Shown: positions 1 through 7,372 of the stretch, piece by piece | How positions within the stretch are numbered: the first letter of the stretch is position 1 | Layout of the letters: each line of letters starts with the position of its first letter | Assembly (NCBI GenBank): GCA_016840645.1 | Contig: JAEORY010000188.1 | Location: 1-7,372 of the forward strand | Reading direction: 5' to 3' | From: Candidatus Borrarchaeota archaeon | Lineage (GTDB): Archaea; Asgardarchaeota; Sifarchaeia; Borrarchaeales; Borrarchaeaceae | DNA length: 7,372 nucleotides | Notes under the pieces: model-generated | The model's database searches: none | Told to the model about the DNA's origin: nothing | What the model saw: the letters and a program-made list of their open reading frames with translations, nothing else | Program-made: the position numbers and the translations under genes

Positions 1-137
1 GGCTCATCAAAGTCAACCAATTCAACATCGAGATCTTGAATTTTCTTTCTTATCTTGATAACATCTTCTTTCGATTTTCTGCTGTCCAACGCCTCTGATG
101 CAGTTGAAACCAACCCCAATCTCAATTTCTTTTTCAT
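1..137 (-). CDS. 5' end of an unidentified gene (partial, runs off the window)
   Basis: An open frame of 45 codons starts at ATG 137-135 and continues off the left edge. AGGAG (150-146) lies 8 bases before the ATG, which makes this a convincing start. The protein begins MKKKLRLGLVSTASEALD, a positively charged start followed by a short beta-strand-like 'LRLGLVST', then a charged helix (about residues 20-35) and a second strand 'VELVDFD'. That strand-helix-strand opening would suit a Rossmann-like fold. It loosely resembles the N-terminus of L-fucose/L-arabinose isomerase-like proteins, but 45 residues are too few to name it. It lies 47 bases after the second mttB-like gene, so it is probably the next cistron of the same operon. 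No signal peptide is apparent, so it is probably cytoplasmic. The gene is very likely real; its function is unknown. Confidence 0.7.
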   Translation of the reverse strand, partial: MKKKLRLGLVSTASEALDSRKSKEDVIKIRKKIQDLDVELVDFDE

Positions 138-162
138 GTGGGTAACTCCTTTTTATAATATG

Positions 163-175
163 TTCACATTGTGAA
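163..175. repeat. Short perfect inverted repeat TTCACA-N-TGTGAA in an intergenic gap
   Basis: TTCACATTGTGAA has 6-bp arms around one central base. It sits in the 47-base gap between the mttB-like stop (185) and the next start (137), just upstream of an AT-rich stretch and the AGGAG site. The arms could be half-sites for a dimeric regulator. The one-base loop makes an RNA hairpin of the full arms impossible, and there is no suitable U-tract, so it is not a terminator. A chance palindrome is also possible. Confidence 0.35.
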
Positions 176-184
176 AAAAAGTGA

Positions 185-1618
185 TTACCGACTCCTTTCA
201 ATAACACTCCTCTTTCTAATTTCTGATATTTCTTTCCGCTTTGCTTCTTCAATTTGAGGAGGCTCATGATGTGCAAGAAGCTCTCTTGACCGTGCATTTA
301 TCCGCCTGGCCAGCGTAAGACCGCCTTTTTCCTTCCAATGTGCAAAGTTAGACCTGTCCATCATTTTCATAGGGGTAATTTCTTCTCTAAAATAACGAAG
401 TGTATGATCATCGGTGAGAAAGTTCCCTCCCGGACCCACATCATCGATTACCTGTACCGCAAGCGTGTCCGGATTGACTTCAATACCGCGAAGAACTCTT
501 CGAACCATATTCAAAATTTCATCAGTGAGAACCACCATATCTATTGACCCGCACATACCGATTTCCATGTATCCGCTATCATGCACCATATTCAATCCTG
601 CAAGAGCATTCATCACACAACTGAAAGTAGATTCAATTGCTGCTTGTTCATCAACGATTTTTGAGTCAGTGAGTCCAGCTGTTCCCCAACTGGGCAACCC
701 ATAATATTGAAGCACTTCTGCATGCGCAGCATTCCCGAGACTAAACTCCGGAGGACCGCAACAGAGCGCACCCGTGGACATATCCATGATATTGGTCGCG
801 ATTCCCAGAATCGTCGGGTTTCCAGGATTTCTCAATTGCGCAATGACCAATCCGGTTAGTGCATCAGCCAATGCTAAAACGATCGTTCCCGCTAGTGTAA
901 CGGGTGAGGTCGCACCATTCATAGGTGAAGGGAAATACGCCAGGGGAATTCCTGCATCCGCAGCAACTAATATCTCCTCAACTGCATCCCTAGGATGAAC
1001 GAGAGGACAAATTGGCTCGGGAAAAGATATAATAAAAGGTTTTTCTTTCAGGGATTTCAAATTTCCGCGTGCAGAAGCTGCCATCTGGATGACATCTCTC
1101 ACGCCTTGCCCATCGGAACAGATGAATGCGATTGGTTTTCTTGTATTTACTACTGCCGCTTCGAATTCGTACACATCAGCAACTCCAGGGGTAACATCTT
1201 GAGCAGAACCGAGGGGCATAATCCATTCTATATTCGTCAGTGCATCTGAAACCCTCGCTGCATCAGCGATATCCTCAACTTTTGTTGATCGCCTTTCTCC
1301 GGTTCTCACATCCAGAACATAGGGTGTGGTGGGGCCTGTACCAAAATGAGATTCATTTCCACCTACCTGAAACGCTGTGTTTCCATCCCGGTCATACAAA
1401 CGGAATCTCTTTGGGGTCTTACGAATACACTCTTCAACTACATGAGGAGGGATAAAAACTCGTTCATTTTCAACTCTGCAGCCATGACTATACAAAAGTT
1501 CTACTGCCTCAGAGGAAAAGATTTTCACTCCTGTTGTATCAAGCACCTCGAGAATAGCATAATGTATAGATATTATCTCTTCATCCGAGAGTATCTTGAA
1601 AATAGGTTTCTTATTCAT
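185..1618 (-). CDS. MttB-superfamily corrinoid methyltransferase, non-pyrrolysine (distal copy)
   Basis: A 477-residue protein matching the trimethylamine methyltransferase family (COG5598), in which a TIM-barrel enzyme moves a methyl group from an amine to the Co(I) of a small corrinoid protein in the cytoplasm. Family-like segments include GATSPVTLAGT (235-245), GLTDSKIVDEQA (315-326) and a C-terminal DDHTLRYFREE (403-413). The length is normal for the family and there is no in-frame TAG, so it lacks the pyrrolysine of archaeal trimethylamine enzymes. It therefore falls with the non-pyrrolysine branch, whose characterised members act on glycine betaine (MtgB), proline betaine (MtpB), carnitine (MtcB) and gamma-butyrobetaine (MtyB). 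The substrate here cannot be read from sequence. The start ATG at 1618 follows only a weak GGGG site. It lies 50 bases behind the second permease gene, so it is likely co-transcribed and possibly acts on the imported solute. It is clearly divergent from the copy at 5285-6709. Confidence 0.93.
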   Translation of the reverse strand: MNKKPIFKILSDEEIISIHYAILEVLDTTGVKIFSSEAVELLYSHGCRVENERVFIPPHVVEECIRKTPKRFRLYDRDGNTAFQVGGNESHFGTGPTTPYVLDVRTGERRSTKVEDIADAARVSDALTNIEWIMPLGSAQDVTPGVADVYEFEAAVVNTRKPIAFICSDGQGVRDVIQMAASARGNLKSLKEKPFIISFPEPICPLVHPRDAVEEILVAADAGIPLAYFPSPMNGATSPVTLAGTIVLALADALTGLVIAQLRNPGNPTILGIATNIMDMSTGALCCGPPEFSLGNAAHAEVLQYYGLPSWGTAGLTDSKIVDEQAAIESTFSCVMNALAGLNMVHDSGYMEIGMCGSIDMVVLTDEILNMVRRVLRGIEVNPDTLAVQVIDDVGPGGNFLTDDHTLRYFREEITPMKMMDRSNFAHWKEKGGLTLARRINARSRELLAHHEPPQIEEAKRKEISEIRKRSVIERSR

Positions 1619-1668
1619 TCGATTACCCCAAGGTATTTCAATTTTTTTCCGAACTTCTCAATATTTCC

Positions 1669-2529
1669 TCATCCCTTGATCGATCCAGCGTACAGTCCTT
1701 TCATGAAGTATCGAATACCTACAATAAAAAGTATAAACATCGGTATTGTCATAACGACCATACCAGACATTATCATGGGGAGATCAAGTATGTTTCTCGA
1801 TTTGAACAATATGAGCCCTGTCATCAAGGTTTTCAATTTGTCTGCTTGCAGAAAAACCATCGCGATGAGCAATTCATTCCATACCCAGATTGCATTTACC
1901 ACCATAAGTGTGATTATTACCGGTTTGGAAAGGGGCAACATAATCAACCAGAGTATTCGTAGATGCGAGCAGCCATCAATTTTTGCGGCATCGAGAATAT
2001 CCTTTGGAATAGTGATAAAAAAGTTGGCAAGCATGTATATACAGAAAGGTAAAATCAACCCCACATAAATGAGAATTGCCGAAGGACGGGTATTCAGTAT
2101 GCCAAGTCTCACAAAAAGGTCAAAAAGCGGAATAATCATAACCACTGCAGGTATGACCATGATTGATATTGTGAAATTAAATAAAGTTCTTTTCCCTCGA
2201 AAATCCATGTGTGCAAAAGCGTATCCTGCAAGGCTTGCGAAAATGATCCCAATGAAAACAGAGAAAAAAGTTATGATTGTTGAATTGAGTAACCATGTGA
2301 TAAATTGCTGTCCACTCCGAAAAGATTTCTCAAAATTGGTCAAGACAAAATGCATAGGAGGACCAAACATGTTATGATGATACTCCTGTCTGGTTTTAAA
2401 GGTGGTGACAACCATATAGTAAATAGGAAAAAGTGCGAGAAATGTCATAGTTATCATGATAAATTGTTGCGTTGTTCTACCAATTGTCCTTCTTCCTTGA
2501 GTCAGCCAGAGCGATCTACTCTTTCTCAA
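1669..2529 (-). CDS. CUT1-type ABC sugar permease, MalG/UgpE-like, TTG start
   Basis: A 286-residue inner-membrane protein of the binding-protein-dependent permease family. Hydrophobic segments lie at about 23-42, 80-108, 118-140, 150-172, 202-226 and 254-274, consistent with the usual six helices. The cytoplasmic EAA loop that docks on the ATPase is at 178-203 (DAAKIDG then LPLSKP). The C-terminus, YFMKGLYAGSIKG, is characteristic of MalG-type subunits. The start is TTG at 2529, inside the end of the upstream permease gene. GGAGGG (2542-2537) stands 7 bases before it, and no in-frame ATG lies between the Shine-Dalgarno site and this codon, so the TTG is well supported. The 14-base overlap suggests translational coupling and equal amounts of the two permeases. 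Solute specificity is unknown. No ATPase gene is in the window, so a shared MsmX/UgpC-type ATPase encoded elsewhere is presumed. Confidence 0.93.
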   Translation of the reverse strand: MRKSRSLWLTQGRRTIGRTTQQFIMITMTFLALFPIYYMVVTTFKTRQEYHHNMFGPPMHFVLTNFEKSFRSGQQFITWLLNSTIITFFSVFIGIIFASLAGYAFAHMDFRGKRTLFNFTISIMVIPAVVMIIPLFDLFVRLGILNTRPSAILIYVGLILPFCIYMLANFFITIPKDILDAAKIDGCSHLRILWLIMLPLSKPVIITLMVVNAIWVWNELLIAMVFLQADKLKTLMTGLILFKSRNILDLPMIMSGMVVMTIPMFILFIVGIRYFMKGLYAGSIKG

Positions 2530-3388
2530 TTGCCATCCCTCCCCGAATGCGGAACTGCAGTATGATAAAAATGGAAGTTACCGCAAGAAGTAAAACCGCG
2601 CACGCCGATGCAACCCCCATCATCTGGAATCTGAAGCCATGCTGAAAGATGTACAATTCTGTTATCATTGTCGCATTTGCAGGACCCCCTGTTGTCATCA
2701 CATAAATGTAAGGGAACATCCAACTCAACATATTTATGGTAGAAATGATAACGTAAAATTCTATCGCTGTACGAAGCTGGGGTATATTGACATGAAATAA
2801 GCGTTGCCACCAGTTTGCTCCATCGATCGTCGCAGCCTCAATTAGTTCAATATCAATTGCCATGAGCCTCGCGAGAAAGAGTATAGTTCCGAAACCAAGC
2901 TCTTTCCAAATAATTACAAACATGACTGTCGGAAGTGCGAATGATGGGTTTCCAAACCAATCGACAGCTATTTTTTCCAGACCAATCCATCGGAGAAAAG
3001 TATTTAATATACCATTAAATTGAAAGATGTAGCTAAACACGATTCCTACAACCGGGATTGCAAGGATGTAAGGTAAAAAAATACTGACTCTGTAAAATTT
3101 CCACCCAGCCATTTGATCAAAAAGTAAGGAGGAAAATATTAATGAAAAAAGAACGAGTACAGGAACACAAATGAGCAAAGTAAAATTGTGGCGAATGGCC
3201 ATATGGAAAATTTGGTCATGAAAAAGGTACGAAAAATTACTTAAACCAATAAATGTATGTTCAGGACCTCGGATGCGCATAAAACTAAAACGAAACAATG
3301 TTATTATCGGGTAAATAAAAATTAGCGATATACAGAGGTATGCAGGGGCCAAATAGAGATAGGGTCTTATCTTTTCCTTGAATATCAT
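2516..3388 (-). CDS. CUT1-type ABC sugar permease, MalF/UgpA-like
   Basis: A 290-residue inner-membrane permease and partner of the MalG-like subunit that overlaps its 3' end. Features include an N-terminal membrane segment (about 11-34), the early FIGLSNF motif (46-52), further hydrophobic segments (about 68-90, 100-124, 152-173, 208-232 and 258-278) and the EAA loop at 181-205 (ELIEAATIDGANWW, ending NIPQL). The MTTGGPANAT stretch (231-240) is typical of UgpA/MalF-type proteins. ATG 3388 follows AAGGA with 6 bases between, so the start is secure. The gene lies downstream of the solute-binding protein gene, separated by 220 bases that hold a strong terminator. Its transcription therefore depends on readthrough or a weak internal promoter. 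It lacks the large periplasmic insertion of enterobacterial MalF, as is usual for generic CUT1 permeases. The transported solute is not predictable from the permease. Confidence 0.94.
   Translation of the reverse strand: MIFKEKIRPYLYLAPAYLCISLIFIYPIITLFRFSFMRIRGPEHTFIGLSNFSYLFHDQIFHMAIRHNFTLLICVPVLVLFSLIFSSLLFDQMAGWKFYRVSIFLPYILAIPVVGIVFSYIFQFNGILNTFLRWIGLEKIAVDWFGNPSFALPTVMFVIIWKELGFGTILFLARLMAIDIELIEAATIDGANWWQRLFHVNIPQLRTAIEFYVIISTINMLSWMFPYIYVMTTGGPANATMITELYIFQHGFRFQMMGVASACAVLLLAVTSIFIILQFRIRGGMAIEKE
2537..2542 (-). promoter_or_regulatory. Shine-Dalgarno site that fixes the TTG start of the MalG-like gene
   Basis: GGAGGG on the minus strand lies within the last codons of the MalF-like gene, 7 bases before TTG 2529. 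It overlaps no other plausible in-frame start. The nearby ATG (2536-2534) belongs to the upstream gene's frame. Confidence 0.7.
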
Positions 3389-3451
3389 CTCCGTTCCTTA
3401 AATTCAAAAAATCATTTCTCGGAGATTCCTAATATAAAAACCAGCATTATT

Positions 3452-3479
3452 ATTTTAAACTCATATCGTAAAAAGTTAA
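3452..3479 (-). promoter_or_regulatory. Weak candidate promoter for the permease genes
   Basis: TTAACT (3479-3474) and TAAAAT (3457-3452) are separated by 16 bases, with 4/6 and 5/6 matches to the sigma-70 hexamers. The pair lies in the 220-base gap after the binding-protein terminator and about 64 bases before the MalF-like ATG. The region is very AT-rich, so such matches arise easily by chance. Apart from this and the terminator I see nothing else in the gap. Confidence 0.25.
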
Positions 3480-3560
3480 ATAGATGTATATTGCCAAAGT
3501 ATATAGTAATCCCTTAATCTGGATCTACATGAAATTTATTCTTTTTTTGGCGTGAAATTA

Positions 3561-3595
3561 ATAAAAAAGGGTAGGGAAGCTTCTACCCTACCCTT
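3561..3595 (-). terminator. Strong rho-independent terminator behind the solute-binding protein gene
   Basis: The arms AAGGGTAGGG and CCCTACCCTT pair perfectly over 10 bp (3567-3576 with 3586-3595) around a 9-base loop. Read on the minus strand, the stem runs straight into a T-tract ending TTTTTTAT, the classic intrinsic terminator layout. It begins only about 14 bases past the binding-protein stop codon. Placed between the binding protein and its permeases, it probably limits how much transcript continues into the permease and mttB-like genes. Confidence 0.9.
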
Positions 3596-3608
3596 CTCAA
3601 ATAATCGA

Positions 3609-4946
3609 TCATTCTAGCCATTTCTCATATTCATCAAGACGATCGGGATTTTCTTTTCTCCATTTTTCAATTATCGTTTGCGTTAATTCTGCAGCCCCTT
3701 CAGGGGTCAGTTGTCCTGCAAACATACCCGCAACAGCTACAAAATAGCCCTGCTCATCAAGCATCGTGGGGAAAAAATTTTCCAAATGGGGTCCAGTCTG
3801 ATCTGAATTCGCCCATTCCCACATTTTTTTCAACTGCGGTAATTCTATCAGGTTTGAGTCGAGTTTCTTTGAACAGTGCAACGTACCAGTGGTTTTAAAG
3901 AAATTGTTTACCTGTTCTTCTTGATACAGCCATCTAAGAAATTCAGCGGCTTCTTCCTTGTGCGATGACCAGGAAGTGATTGAATATCCGTTTGTCTCCA
4001 TAAAATAACTTCCTGAAAGTTTTCCTTTTCCCATTGCAGGAATCCGCGCAACACCAACCGCTTCAACACCAAGTTCTTCAACCCACGCTCCAACGTGTGA
4101 ATCTGTCGCAAAAACCATTGCAATTCGTTGTTGAGGGAACAAATCCCATCCCTGATCAGCAGTGAGTGATAGAACATCATCATTGTAATAACCTTGTTGA
4201 ATGATAAACTCCAATCGTTTCCACCAATCTGAATATTTCGGTTCTGTGAGTTTTGCTCTTCCCAGAGCAACTTTTTTCATATCATCTGGACTGTCAAGAT
4301 CCTGGATACCCCAATGTGACACCATCCAACCCCCCTGCCATTGATCTTTCAGCCCCAAGCCGAGAGGAGTGATTCCTGCATTTTTCAGTTTCTTGCACAC
4401 ATCGACAAATTGCTCCCAGTTTTTAGGAGGCTTTTCCGGATCGAGCCCTGCTTTCTGAAATAGCTTTTTATTGTACGTCATCGGCTTTCCTGACAGATAA
4501 TAACCAACCCCCCACACCTTTCCATTCCATAATCTATCCTTATAACCAATAACCTGTTCAATTTCATCCATTGACCAATAATCGCTTAAAGGAGCAATAC
4601 TCCCTGCCCAAACATCTTCCAGGCACCATACACCGCCCCAGAAAAACGCAATGTCCGGACCTTCCTGTGCGGCAGCAGCAGCTTTAAAGGAAGGAATGAG
4701 GGTATCGAGAGATTGTTGGACTGGATCAATATCGATATTTGGATTTTCAGCTTCGTACTGCTTCACAGCGATATCGATCCACTCCGGCATTTTTACCACA
4801 TCCCAGGCTCCCGCCCACCAAAAGGTAATTATTTTTTTCCCCTCTTTTGTTTCTTCTTTCCTACCACCTGCAAATGCTAGACACGCAACTGACAATACGA
4901 GTACTACGCAAACTGATGATAGAACCACTCTTTTGCTTCGTTTCAT
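3609..4946 (-). CDS. ABC transporter family 1 solute-binding protein (carbohydrate type), tryptophan-rich
   Basis: A 445-residue exported binding protein of the MalE/UgpB-like family that would deliver solute to the adjacent CUT1 permeases. I place the start at ATG 4946, because AGGAGG lies 6 bases before it. An in-frame ATG five codons upstream (4961) overlaps that site and would translate it as RR. The N-terminus MKRSKRVVLSS is followed by a hydrophobic core and AFA at 24-26, a likely signal peptidase I site before GGRKEE. Cys22 (SVAC) is an imperfect lipobox, so a lipoprotein in a loose spirochaete style is an alternative. Family-like features are FWWAGAW just after the signal, the early GPDIAFFWGG and the later EEAAEFLRWL. 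It contains 24 tryptophans, unusually many, which could stack on sugar rings or form a cation-pi cage for a quaternary amine. A strong terminator follows, probably making it more abundant than the permeases. Confidence 0.94.
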   Translation of the reverse strand: MKRSKRVVLSSVCVVLVLSVACLAFAGGRKEETKEGKKIITFWWAGAWDVVKMPEWIDIAVKQYEAENPNIDIDPVQQSLDTLIPSFKAAAAAQEGPDIAFFWGGVWCLEDVWAGSIAPLSDYWSMDEIEQVIGYKDRLWNGKVWGVGYYLSGKPMTYNKKLFQKAGLDPEKPPKNWEQFVDVCKKLKNAGITPLGLGLKDQWQGGWMVSHWGIQDLDSPDDMKKVALGRAKLTEPKYSDWWKRLEFIIQQGYYNDDVLSLTADQGWDLFPQQRIAMVFATDSHVGAWVEELGVEAVGVARIPAMGKGKLSGSYFMETNGYSITSWSSHKEEAAEFLRWLYQEEQVNNFFKTTGTLHCSKKLDSNLIELPQLKKMWEWANSDQTGPHLENFFPTMLDEQGYFVAVAGMFAGQLTPEGAAELTQTIIEKWRKENPDRLDEYEKWLE

Positions 4947-4952
4947 AGGTTT

Positions 4953-4958
4953 CCTCCT
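4953..4958 (-). promoter_or_regulatory. Shine-Dalgarno site deciding the start of the solute-binding protein
   Basis: A perfect AGGAGG stands 6 bases before ATG 4946. It lies inside the first codons of the longer alternative reading from ATG 4961, which has no comparable site, so the shorter protein is preferred. Confidence 0.8.
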
Positions 4959-5062
4959 CATAGATTGTTATATTTTTTTCCATCTTTTATGTTTGCACAA
5001 TGCATATTATATCTATTTAAGACTTTTATGAAATAACTATTGATTGTCAAGTTAATCGCCAT
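4958..5062 (-). CDS. Possible 34-residue leader peptide upstream of the binding-protein gene
   Basis: ATG 5062 is preceded by GGGAGG with a 10-base spacer, and the frame runs 34 codons, beginning MAINLTINSYFIKVLN and ending KKYNNL. Its TGA (4960-4958) touches the AGGAGG of the solute-binding protein gene, an arrangement that would permit translational coupling. The peptide has no recognisable domain or signal sequence and is Asn/Lys/Tyr-rich, as expected from AT-rich noncoding DNA. A perfect TTGACA (5050-5045) lies inside the frame. If that is the real promoter -35 box, the ORF is not transcribed from it. It may be a leader peptide or a chance ORF with a good ribosome site. Confidence 0.25.
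   Translation of the reverse strand: MAINLTINSYFIKVLNRYNMHCANIKDGKKYNNL
5006..5050 (-). promoter_or_regulatory. Candidate promoter region for the solute-binding protein gene
   Basis: A perfect TTGACA (5050-5045) and a perfect TATAAT (5011-5006) occur in this AT-rich stretch, but 33 bases apart, so they cannot be one promoter. Possible pairings are TTGACA with TAAAAG (5028-5023, spacer 16) and TATAAT with TTCATA (5032-5027, spacer 15). Either would give a short leader before ATG 4946 and independent expression of the binding protein. Confidence 0.35.
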
Positions 5063-5067
5063 ATAAT

Positions 5068-5090
5068 AATTTCCTCCCTGTGGGAAAATT
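5068..5090 (-). promoter_or_regulatory. Small hairpin covering a Shine-Dalgarno-like GGGAGG
   Basis: On the minus strand TTTCC (5087-5083) can pair with GGAAA (5074-5070), or alternatively CCC (5084-5082) with GGG (5078-5076) across a 3-base loop. Both folds bury GGGAGG, the ribosome site of the possible leader ORF. The stem is short and may be coincidental. A second hairpin, CGACT/AGTCG with a 6-base loop (5106-5091), lies immediately upstream. Confidence 0.3.
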
Positions 5091-5163
5091 CGACTTTGAG
5101 GAGTCGGCTGCGACGAAAGCCCAATACATGCTCGAGATACTCCCCTATTAAAAGGTGAAATCG

Positions 5164-5199
5164 TGTATCGAAATATTAAAGACCCTGGCATACGATACA
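5164..5199. repeat. 7-bp inverted repeat TGTATCG / CGATACA
   Basis: TGTATCG (5164-5170) and CGATACA (5193-5199) are perfect inverted arms separated by 22 bases, within the leader before the binding-protein gene. The centre-to-centre distance is 29 bases, close to but not an exact number of helical turns. It could be paired operator half-sites or the base of an RNA stem; chance is possible. Confidence 0.35.
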
Positions 5200-5284
5200 A
5201 GGCAATGGAGCCAATAATCCCGTAGCAAAATGATTTCGGGTGAGATCTCTGCGTGATCCGTTTTACTCCTGATAGAATAAATTC

Positions 5285-6709
5285 TCATTTTGATAAAAAT
5301 TTTTTTGCATCCTTAAGGAGTCGATTTACAGATTTTATCGTATCCCCATCCAATGGAACAGGTGAATGTTCTTTTAATATTTTATCTCTCTTTCCCCTGC
5401 AGCGAGAAAACATATCTTTTTTTCCGGAATTTATCCAGTTCTCCCAGAAATCGCGGTCCAATAATTCTGGAAACCATAATTCTTTCCGAAAATGTTTTAC
5501 CGTATGATCCTCTGAAAAAAAACTCCCCTCTTTAATTGCATTCTCAATCACTGGTATACCGAATTTTTCATCGGTTATTTCAACTCCCTGCATCATCCTT
5601 TCAACATACCCTATTATTTCGTGTTGCATCATTAAAATCGGCAATGATGTTCCCTGGTCGACTCCGCTGATCCCTAAATGTCCGAATATATCTGCACCAG
5701 CCATTGCCCCGCATGCCAACGTGATACCAGCCTCTAATCCAGCCTGTGCATCTGGTATCTTGCTATCAGTTAATCCGACATTGATATACACAGGAAGGTT
5801 ATAACTCTTACCCATTTGAGTCATGCCGACAGCCATCAGTGCTTGTTCTGGACCTGCAAATATCATTTGCATGGTTCTCATATCAAATGCATGTGGGATA
5901 CCCCCATAGCACACAGGAGTACCTGATTTGATGAGCTGTACGATACAAATGCCTGCCAATATTTCCGCATTTTCCTGTGCCATTGTACCAGCGAGAGTTG
6001 CCGGAGCAGTTGCACCAGTTTGTGCCATAGGTCCGACAGGCACAGGCAAATTAAACCGGGATGTCTCAAACAGGAGATCTATCCCATCTTTCGGGAACCT
6101 CAAGGGACTGATAGGTTCTAAAAAAGGGTATGCAAAAGGGTATTTCATTGCGTCTGCTTCATTACCCGCGATAATCGTAAACAATTCCAAAAGAAACTTT
6201 GTGTTTGATCTGTTATGAAACCAGAAGTGAATCGGTTTTGTCGTATTCTTCAATAGTTCTGCTCCGATGTATACGTATCGGTATTCGACCGGAATATCAT
6301 ACGCATCCGACATAGCCCCAACAACATTTATACGCGGTAAGGAATCACCAATAATTGCGGCTGTTTTCACATCGGCGAGATTCGTATACCTCCGCTCAAG
6401 GTTGTCTTCGATCCATGAGGGTTCTCCTGCAATTGAATTATAATTCCGTTTCCCAAATCCAAACTCTGCCTTTCTTGATCGATCACGCCCGTATATAGTA
6501 AATTGTTTCCCGCAGGATTCAAGGCACTGTCTCACAAGATTCTCGGGAATCTTGACAATCTTATGATCCACATCGACATTTGAACCTGCTTCGAGAAAGA
6601 ACTCCAAAACTTTCTCATGGGGGACAAAAACTCCTATATCCTCCAATATATGTATCGATGCATCATGTATTTGCTCAATCTGACTGTCATTCAGCAGCAT
6701 GACTTTCAT
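5285..6709 (-). CDS. MttB-superfamily corrinoid methyltransferase, non-pyrrolysine (proximal copy)
   Basis: A 474-residue member of the trimethylamine methyltransferase family (COG5598), expected to be cytoplasmic and to methylate a Co(I) corrinoid protein from a methylated amine or related donor. Matching segments are GATAPATLAGT (232-242), GLTDSKIPDAQAG (312-324) and EDHTVKHFRKE (400-410), aligning without large gaps to the copy at 185-1618 but with otherwise low similarity. It is full length with no in-frame TAG, so it is a non-pyrrolysine member of the group that includes the betaine and carnitine demethylases. ATG 6709 follows GGAGG with a 7-base spacer; a second ATG at codon 4 is less well placed. 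It stands 117 bases after the damaged sugar-binding gene and 338 bases before the intact binding-protein gene. No corrinoid protein gene is adjacent, which is unusual for a demethylase operon. Substrate and direction of methyl transfer are unknown. Confidence 0.93.
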   Translation of the reverse strand: MKVMLLNDSQIEQIHDASIHILEDIGVFVPHEKVLEFFLEAGSNVDVDHKIVKIPENLVRQCLESCGKQFTIYGRDRSRKAEFGFGKRNYNSIAGEPSWIEDNLERRYTNLADVKTAAIIGDSLPRINVVGAMSDAYDIPVEYRYVYIGAELLKNTTKPIHFWFHNRSNTKFLLELFTIIAGNEADAMKYPFAYPFLEPISPLRFPKDGIDLLFETSRFNLPVPVGPMAQTGATAPATLAGTMAQENAEILAGICIVQLIKSGTPVCYGGIPHAFDMRTMQMIFAGPEQALMAVGMTQMGKSYNLPVYINVGLTDSKIPDAQAGLEAGITLACGAMAGADIFGHLGISGVDQGTSLPILMMQHEIIGYVERMMQGVEITDEKFGIPVIENAIKEGSFFSEDHTVKHFRKELWFPELLDRDFWENWINSGKKDMFSRCRGKRDKILKEHSPVPLDGDTIKSVNRLLKDAKKFLSK

Positions 6710-6826
6710 GCTCTACCCTCCCTCTCATTGGGCAAACGTATGTCACCCCTTCTGCTTAGATATAGAAGAAATTATTGATATATCACTGAACTGGTGAGAC
6801 GGATATTGATTAATAGATTACCTTTC

Positions 6827-7372
6827 TTATTCGACCTGATTTCCCCATAATTCTGGGTCGTTGACATTTTCTTCTGTAATGGGTTTCCCTGGATGCAGGA
6901 TTTCAGGACCGTAAGGCTGAATAGTAAGCTCCGATTCAACGCCGGCAATATTGTATTTCCCGGGTTTAATTTCCCTTTTATTAATGATGTCATCTAAAAA
7001 ATTTACTACACCTTCAACACATTCAATAGTGGGAAAGTCGATCGTGGCTTGAAGCCACCCGTCTCTGATAAGCTCAAGACCCATCGGCATCCCCACTGTT
7101 GAAATCATTAATATTTCCCCTTTTTCATACCCTTTGGATTCAAGAACAGATACTATCGCAGCAGCAAGGTGTTCTGCATGCGAAAATATCATATCAGTAT
7201 ATGGATGCGCGACAAGCCAATCATCAGCAATATCAGCTGCATTTGACGCTTCCCATCCTTCGGCGATCTTGGTGTTGATATCAACCTAAGGATATCAATC
7301 TTCGCATCTCCATCTGTTGAAGTAAAGTAAATTTCATTGAATGTAATTTTAATATGGTAATCAGCTACACCC
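6827..7372 (-). pseudogene. C-terminal part of a CUT2-like (RbsB-type) sugar-binding protein, frameshifted, partial
   Basis: From 7285 to the TAA at 6827 the frame encodes about 152 residues resembling the C-terminal half of a periplasmic ribose/galactose-type binding protein. It shows a helix ending in DDWLVAHPYTDMIFSH, a lobe strand-turn ILMISTVGMPMGLELIRDG, ATIDFP, and the family-like end PITEENVNDPELWGNQ. An in-frame TAG at 7288-7286 cuts this frame from upstream sequence. The region 7371-7292 is open in another frame (reading GDAKID near its end). Removing one 14-base unit of the direct repeat at 7277-7298 joins the two as GDAKIDINTKIAEGWEA. The ATG at 7192 has no ribosome site, so an independent short gene is unlikely. 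The residues before the junction do not obviously match the family, so the upstream frame is less certain. A real inactivating duplication or a sequencing/assembly error are both possible. It precedes the mttB-like gene by 117 bases without a clear terminator. Confidence 0.6.
7277..7298. repeat. 8-bp direct repeat GATATCAA with 6-bp spacer at the frameshift
   Basis: GATATCAA occurs at 7277-7284 and 7291-7298, separated by CCTAAG, giving a 14-bp period. The left copy is the core of a 12-bp perfect palindrome, GTTGATATCAAC (7274-7285). The 14-base period is not a multiple of three and coincides with the break in the binding-protein frame. It could have arisen by slippage at a palindrome or remain as a footprint of an excised element with an 8-bp target duplication. 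Confidence 0.65.

Follow-up and report, generated by a model that had tools for sequence, protein, structure and literature searches.

A carbohydrate-type importer adjoining MttB-superfamily methyltransferase genes in a Borrarchaeota contig, and its possible role in demethylation

What would an importer of the sugar type be doing between two methyltransferase genes? The question is raised by a 7,372-nucleotide stretch of DNA from a Candidatus Borrarchaeota archaeon (assembly GCA_016840645.1, contig JAEORY010000188.1, positions 1 to 7,372; hereafter the window), in which the genes for a substrate-binding protein (SBP) and for MalF-like and MalG-like permeases of a CUT1-type ATP-binding cassette (ABC) importer are flanked on the same strand by two genes of the MttB superfamily, designated here MttB_A and MttB_B. 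We take the host to be a bacterium, probably an uncultured relative of the spirochaetes. This arrangement of genes, proposed in an initial annotation, was confirmed, the five genes being full-length open reading frames (ORFs) on the minus strand with Pfam support (Table 1). We tentatively favor, at slightly short of an even chance, the view that the locus is a catabolic module for the import and demethylation of a methylated sugar- or polyol-like molecule.

An indication that importer and methyltransferase belong together comes from relatives of the transporter in a sample of 392 Spirochaetota genomes. The window MalF has 14 matches at an E value of 1e-50, distributed over eight of these genomes. 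All four relatives with at least 50% identity, two in G001 (CP070841, Spirochaetota bin100) and two in G062, have an MttB gene within 5 kb, whereas none of the ten weaker relatives shows one within 6 kb (three of the stretches being cut by contig ends). At the two G062 loci, 81 and 128 bp separate the MttB gene from the permease genes; at those of G001 the distance is 0.8 kb (with convergent genes) and 4.9 kb. On the MalF tree, the window protein and the four closer relatives group together with support values of 89/85, below the level that the tool marks with a star.

The gene content of these loci varies around this common core. In locus L172 the order is SBP-MalF-MalG-MttB, as in the window, with a divergent LacI gene, while in L173 genes for MttB, SBP, GntR, an FGGY kinase and a corrinoid protein share one strand and MalF-MalG are divergent, the MalG gene having been located by tblastn. 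L138 presents SBP-MalF-MalG followed by a creatinase-type hydrolase, an alcohol dehydrogenase, a xylose-isomerase-type protein, a class-III aminotransferase, a cupin and two successive MttB genes. Isochorismatase, URO-D, DegT aminotransferases, a GFO/IDH/MocA oxidoreductase and a corrinoid protein are also encoded in L139-L140, where a "fucose isomerase" label in L140 was discarded because its score falls under the Pfam cut-off. The MttB of L172, of which 234 aa are present before the contig ends, shares 60% identity with the MttB at 7857 in L139, and these two loci appear to hold one MttB-CUT1 pair common to G062 and G001. Because the CUT1-linked MttBs found here share no more than about 25-31% identity with MttB_A and MttB_B (one further CUT1-linked MttB, outside that alignment, is 34-36% identical to MttB_B over its two halves), the recurrent feature, as judged from sequence comparison, is a CUT1 importer clade with some MttB and not MttB_A and MttB_B as a pair.

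Viewed from the methyltransferases, the picture is different. We surveyed the loci of the best 80 of 220 MttB_A relatives in GTDB, taking up to 10 kb on each side, and 57 of the 80 have at least 1.5 kb on both flanks. CUT1 permeases occur in only two of the 80 loci, compared with corrinoid proteins in three and URO-D in 16. For 50 of the 77 MttB_A loci that do not belong to G001, a MalF search of the corresponding genomes returned two matches at an E value of 1e-45 (38 and 39% identical), and no MttB was recognized in the stretches around them. Among 14 MttB-bearing Spirochaetota genomes, MttB_A matches at 1e-120 number three in G001 and one in G029, with none in G062. For MttB_B the evidence is indirect: its homologue P0004 (74% identical) and the SBP homologue P0242 (77%) each lie on a contig of 78,689 bases, from which we infer that the two share one contig and hence that the MttB_B-SBP linkage is conserved. 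The initial annotation would have counted a lack of linkage between MttB homologues and CUT1 importers in other genomes as a refutation. Linkage is seen on the side of the transporter, with four loci in two Spirochaetota genomes, and indirectly for MttB_B; MttB_A homologues in other genomes are for the most part unlinked to such importers, which speaks against the annotation's reading for MttB_A. That reading is on balance supported in part.

Within the window, the importer has the composition expected of the CUT1 family, an SBP_bac_1-type binding protein with two PF00528 permeases. The five genes of the locus do not form one clean operon. A strong terminator-like hairpin follows the SBP gene (none of 200 shuffled sequences was equally stable), MalF and MalG overlap by 14 bp and MalG is separated from MttB_B by 50 bp, so that the tight unit is MalF-MalG-MttB_B; MttB_A may be transcribed separately. 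The description of the importer as sandwiched between methyltransferases is therefore accurate for gene order and strand, but not for a single operon, with the hairpin splitting SBP from MalF. The two longest intergenic gaps measure 323 and 220 bp. No CUT1 ATPase of the MalK/UgpC type is present among the genes found in the window; ATPases of such importers are often encoded elsewhere, away from the importer genes.

Both methyltransferases belong to PF06253/COG5598, and both lack the hallmarks of the pyrrolysine enzyme, in line with the initial annotation: there is no in-frame TAG in either reading frame, the pyrrolysine position (Pyl334) is occupied by leucine in MttB_A (TTA, 5773-5771) and in MttB_B (CTC, 673-671), and their scores against the pyrrolysine-enzyme model TIGR02369 (366 and 427 bits, respectively) fall under its cut-off of 525. 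Matches to the Rfam family PYLIS_3 lie in both genes, at 573-673 and 5667-5773 on the minus strand; one of the two reaches 44.3 bits, over the gathering score of 38, and the other 32.2 bits, under it. Pyrrolysine insertion was rejected here, as there is no TAG, and the matches were read as shared coding sequence; the PYLIS_3 family seems to detect mttB coding sequence.

The initial annotation had also noted that no corrinoid protein is encoded nearby, and indeed no B12-binding domain was detected in the Pfam scan of six window ORFs, which also gave neither the second methyltransferase nor the activase of a three-part corrinoid system. A partner acting in trans is plausible, because both Spirochaetota genomes with the linkage encode B12-binding and RACo-type genes elsewhere: B12-binding_2 matches number 12 in G001 and 18 in G062 (methionine synthase not subtracted), and there are two matches to the RACo activase in each genome. 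Under the reading that we prefer, the CUT1 importer (SBP, MalF and MalG, with an ATPase from elsewhere) would take up a methylated sugar- or polyol-like small molecule, and MttB_B would then methylate, at the expense of this molecule, the Co(I) of a corrinoid protein whose gene lies elsewhere. A second methyltransferase would then move the methyl group from the corrinoid to tetrahydrofolate, with a RACo-type activase maintaining the corrinoid in its reduced state. MttB_A would handle a second, related substrate, possibly taken up by the ribose-type system whose binding-protein gene lies ahead of its own. The sequence data establish the anatomy of the genes, the families to which they belong, the closeness of CUT1 and MttB genes at four loci within a single order of Spirochaetota, and the presence of corrinoid-binding and activase genes in G001 and G062. 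The activity of MttB_A and MttB_B, a corrinoid partner acting in trans, the pathway's direction and the substrate are what we infer in this scheme.

Further information on the possible substrate was provided by the genes adjoining MttB_A homologues. Of 95 immediate same-strand neighbors, 86 were scanned and nine were left out by hand, gene calls in the relatives' loci being made with a composition score. The 86 neighbors comprise 14 with a GH4 C-terminal domain, six PIG-L, five URO-D, four MFS_2, three sulfatases, three B12-binding proteins and two flavin adenine dinucleotide (FAD) oxidoreductases. GH4 genes are found in 20 of the 80 MttB_A loci; in 13 of these loci a GH4 gene shares the strand of MttB_A and is no more than 300 bp away. 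Across 50 MttB_A genomes containing 285 GH4 genes, a same-strand GH4 within 370 bp was seen 13 times, compared with 0.02 expected under random placement; excluding one doubtful call with a poor motif alignment (L019, 3-929), the counts are 12 of 80 and 12 of 50. No GH4 was found in loci numbered above L080, which are mostly other Spirochaetota MttBs in short stretches. The GH4 label is not clustered on the MttB_A tree (18 changes, against a mean of 18.0 in shuffled labels) and occurs under nine phylum-level names, which suggests that the link arose recurrently or has often been lost. The motif CHG[VIF], which we take to be that of uronidase-type GH4 enzymes, is present in 18 of 24 GH4-like proteins, and at least two types of GH4 gene are represented beside MttB_A. 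One of the MttB_A paralogues of G001 is preceded by a two-domain ABC ATPase and followed by an SDR gene and, further on, a class-II aldolase, and a second lies 1.4 kb from a ribose-type importer. Other neighborhoods of MttB_A homologues were recorded in Lokiarchaeota, where the MttB_A homologue adjoins a PIG-L deacetylase in L056 and an MFS_2 sugar transporter in L036, and a corrinoid protein is encoded in three loci (L036, L038 and L062).

Several observations weigh against the proposed module. The details of the linkage derive from two MttB-rich genomes of a single order, represented by eight genomes in the sample, and part of the linkage could for that reason be due to chance. Under outright chance adjacency, the transporter and the methyltransferases would serve unrelated substrates and be neighbors only because such genomes carry dozens of MttB genes: G001 has 40 MttB matches, so that 10.7% of the genome falls within 5 kb of an MttB match. 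The L138 MttB is separated from MalG by the full 4.9 kb, the L139 MttB is oppositely oriented, and for another CUT1 set of G001 (L176, MalF 44% identical) the nearest MttB is 6.8 kb away. In L151, a CUT1 set that is only distantly related (MalF 29%) likewise has an MttB at 2.9 kb, although this stretch had been selected because it contains that MttB. Among the matches listed, no MttB_A homologue is found on a contig of 78,689 bases, and the contig of 39,054 bases carrying P0005, which is 80% identical to MttB_B, has no SBP match (P0005 has 445 aa and its gene is perhaps cut by the contig end). The scarcity of CUT1 genes beside MttB_A elsewhere and the terminator between SBP and MalF point in the same direction. 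We nonetheless consider chance adjacency improbable, given a nearby MttB in four of four closer MalF relatives against none seen for the ten weaker ones, the short gaps in G062 and in the window, the pair common to G001 and G062 (at 60% over the part available) and the occurrence of SBP and MttB_B homologues on contigs of identical length. On the gene neighborhoods at hand, the CUT1-MttB module appears real and narrowly sampled, and in MttB-rich Spirochaetota the CUT1 clade with its MttB probably constitutes a route for the import and demethylation of a methylated compound.

The nature of that compound is less constrained. The initial annotation had inferred a bulkier, possibly glycosylated or polyol-like substrate, a suggestion that finds some backing in GH4, PIG-L, FGGY, LacI and aldolase neighbors; FAD oxidoreductase, creatinase-type, isochorismatase-type and class-III aminotransferase neighbors fit an ordinary N-methyl amino acid equally well. 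The creatinase-type, isochorismatase-type and aminotransferase genes stand beside the CUT1-MttB genes of G001 themselves, an FAD oxidoreductase adjoins two of the three MttB_A genes of that genome, and the window's own MttB_A subclade (18 rows, with five GTDB loci, three of them from G001) is devoid of GH4. The characterized relatives named in PMC12155760, moreover, act on methylamines. The main rival to the proposed module, which we regard as unlikely, is conventional betaine demethylation, in which the MttBs would act on a known quaternary amine or N-methyl amino acid (betaine, carnitine-like or phosphocholine-like) and the CUT1 system would have been recruited, for instance as a glycerophosphocholine-type importer. 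Quite improbable, in our assessment, is O-demethylation by MttB_A-type enzymes of methyl-ether sugars or uronates, such as 4-O-methylglucuronate freed by GH4, which would parallel in anaerobes the P450 route described for 6-O-methylgalactose (PMC10033563). The spread of GH4 near MttB_A, the frequency of the CHG[VIF] motif, the sulfatases and polysaccharide enzymes near MttB_A homologues, and a glutamate at the position of MtgB Asn199 in all aligned A- and B-family rows are in agreement with such a reaction. We know of no MttB-superfamily enzyme shown to cleave a methyl ether, however, and the chemistry is different; GH4 genes beside MttB_A are not of one type, the window contains none, and PIG-L and the amine-type neighbors indicate nitrogen. 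Returning to import and demethylation of a sugar- or polyol-like molecule, we would guess first at an N-methylated amino sugar or aminocyclitol as the substrate class, since such a compound would account alike for the sugar-type signals (the binding-protein fold, LacI, FGGY, GH4, the aldolase and the ribose-type system) and the amine-type ones (the FAD oxidoreductase, the creatinase-type hydrolase and the aminotransferases). A broader proposition, which we hold to be doubtful, is that of a carbohydrate branch of the MttB superfamily, demethylating N-methylated amino sugars or cyclitols or O-methylated sugars. In Spirochaetota its substrates would arrive through CUT1 and ribose-type importers, and in many other phyla, Asgard archaea included, it would be coupled to GH4 and PIG-L. 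Such a branch, if it exists, would open sugar-bound methyl groups to anaerobic one-carbon metabolism.

Comparison with characterized systems places the locus among known families in a combination of its own. The glycine betaine system MtgB-MtgC of Desulfitobacterium hafniense and Methanolobus vulcani likewise relies on a non-pyrrolysine MttB-superfamily enzyme of similar size, and methyl transfer to a corrinoid protein would be the expected reaction here too. MtgB is 28% identical to MttB_A and 30% to MttB_B, and the residues predicted by docking to contact betaine in MtgB (Y94, N199, R309 and H345; PMC6855144) are not kept, the corresponding positions being A, E, Y and G in MttB_A and P, E, W and H in MttB_B. 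In M. vulcani, opuD lies upstream and mtgC downstream of mtgB (PMC6855144), whereas the window has a CUT1 importer and no corrinoid gene. The phosphocholine system of Eubacterium limosum (MthB/MthK/MthC/MthA) pairs an MttB-superfamily enzyme with a nearby gene for a substrate-modifying kinase, as L173 has a kinase in the same run as MttB; MthK is a choline kinase related to serine kinases (PMC12155760) and, unlike the L173 kinase, does not belong to FGGY. Importers of the UgpABE, MsmEFG and NgcEFG types share with the window an SBP_bac_1 binding protein and two PF00528 permeases, but the NCBIfam equivalog scores of the window importer are far under the cut-offs and it is linked to MttB. The pyrrolysine-containing trimethylamine methyltransferase MttB (7xcl) belongs to the same superfamily, and PYLIS_3 scores on the window genes; the window enzymes differ from it by the absence of TAG and the leucine at the pyrrolysine position. 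Among the titles and abstract beginnings listed from open-licence literature, none describes MttB beside sugar importers or GH4, the enzyme superfamily and the transporter family being each known. The MttB superfamily is very large, yet according to PMC12155760 the physiological substrate has been identified for only six of its members. Ties to a sugar-type importer, a sugar kinase and LacI, and for the MttB_A family to GH4, offer a testable handle on its uncharacterized branches. Should the substrate turn out to be a methylated sugar or amino sugar, anaerobes would be known to draw methyl groups from a new source, and the O-demethylation of sugars by aerobes would have an anaerobic equivalent.

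Table 1. Features of the window with their coordinates and support, and loci in which GH4 directly adjoins an MttB_A homologue
Feature	Position or loci	Strand	Support
Further gene, first 45 codons	3..137	minus	AAGGAG ribosome site
MttB_B, non-pyrrolysine MttB-superfamily methyltransferase, 477 aa	185..1618	minus	PF06253 319 bits (cut-off 25), profile 26-491 of 500
MalG/UgpE-like CUT1 permease, 286 aa, TTG start	1669..2529	minus	PF00528
MalF/UgpA-like CUT1 permease, 290 aa	2516..3388	minus	PF00528; UgpA NCBIfam model 100 bits, cut-off 335
Intrinsic terminator-like hairpin, SBP/MalF interval	3568..3589	minus	fold -23 kcal/mol, z -5.0
SBP, CUT1-type substrate-binding protein	3609..4961	minus	PF01547/PF13416
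MttB_A, non-pyrrolysine MttB-superfamily methyltransferase, 474 aa	5285..6709	minus	PF06253 298 bits (cut-off 25), profile 32-487 of 500
Ribose-type (CUT2-like) periplasmic binding protein, C-terminal 151 aa	6827..7282	minus	PF13407 38.1 bits, cut-off 35.1
GH4 directly beside MttB_A homologue	L006, L017, L022, L026, L032, L033, L037, L063, L064, L065, L072, L074 and others		

The flanks of the window contain two incomplete genes, neither of them mentioned in the initial annotation. The ribose-type fragment lies just upstream of MttB_A, its open frame being broken upstream of 7282, and the top PDB chain for its product is 4y9t_A (E 6.4e-36 over 142 residues), whose ligand we take to be an amino sugar. 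At the opposite end, the gene starting at 137 has no Pfam match to an E value of 0.01 and no PDB match to 10, and an identity as fucose isomerase, read by eye, was dropped. The likely start codon of SBP is at 4946, preceded by AGGAGG, and the terminator downstream of this gene may yield more binding protein than permease.

The closest relatives of the methyltransferases include P0122, 78% identical to MttB_A, and proteins 85, 85, 78 and 74% identical to MttB_B. Among the matches listed, MttB_A and SBP are present at 100% and MttB_B at 85% at best, and one member of the SBP cluster sits on a contig of 10,124 bases. Searches for close MttB_B homologues in 337, 370 and 362 genomes of three other phyla (E values of 1e-135, 1e-125 and 1e-125) gave none, a result of little weight as there was no positive control, and scans of viral_contigs with queries A2 and A1 found no relative. 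An AlphaFold2 model of MttB_A built from 12 rows reached a predicted local distance difference test score (pLDDT) of 46.7 and was not used.

Additional observations concern MttB and CUT1 genes in related loci. The 3.5-Mb genome G001 contains three long MttB matches with a single in-frame TAG or TGA, as well as two fragments with two stops each. In L177 of the same genome (7600-12027), an FAD oxidoreductase gene (PF01266) comes after SBP-MalF-MalG and the 19 kb available contain no MttB; the substrates of CUT1 importers in this lineage may include amines. In L202 (6144-10637), from Phycisphaerae, a GH4-like gene, recognized by its N-terminal sequence, directly precedes a CUT1 set whose MalF is 39% identical to that of the window. 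An array common to two genomes, found in L155 and L156, contains MttB pairs with about 33-40% identity to MttB_B, and in L155 the pair is accompanied by a two-part flavin mononucleotide (FMN)/FAD oxidoreductase and an aldehyde ferredoxin oxidoreductase.

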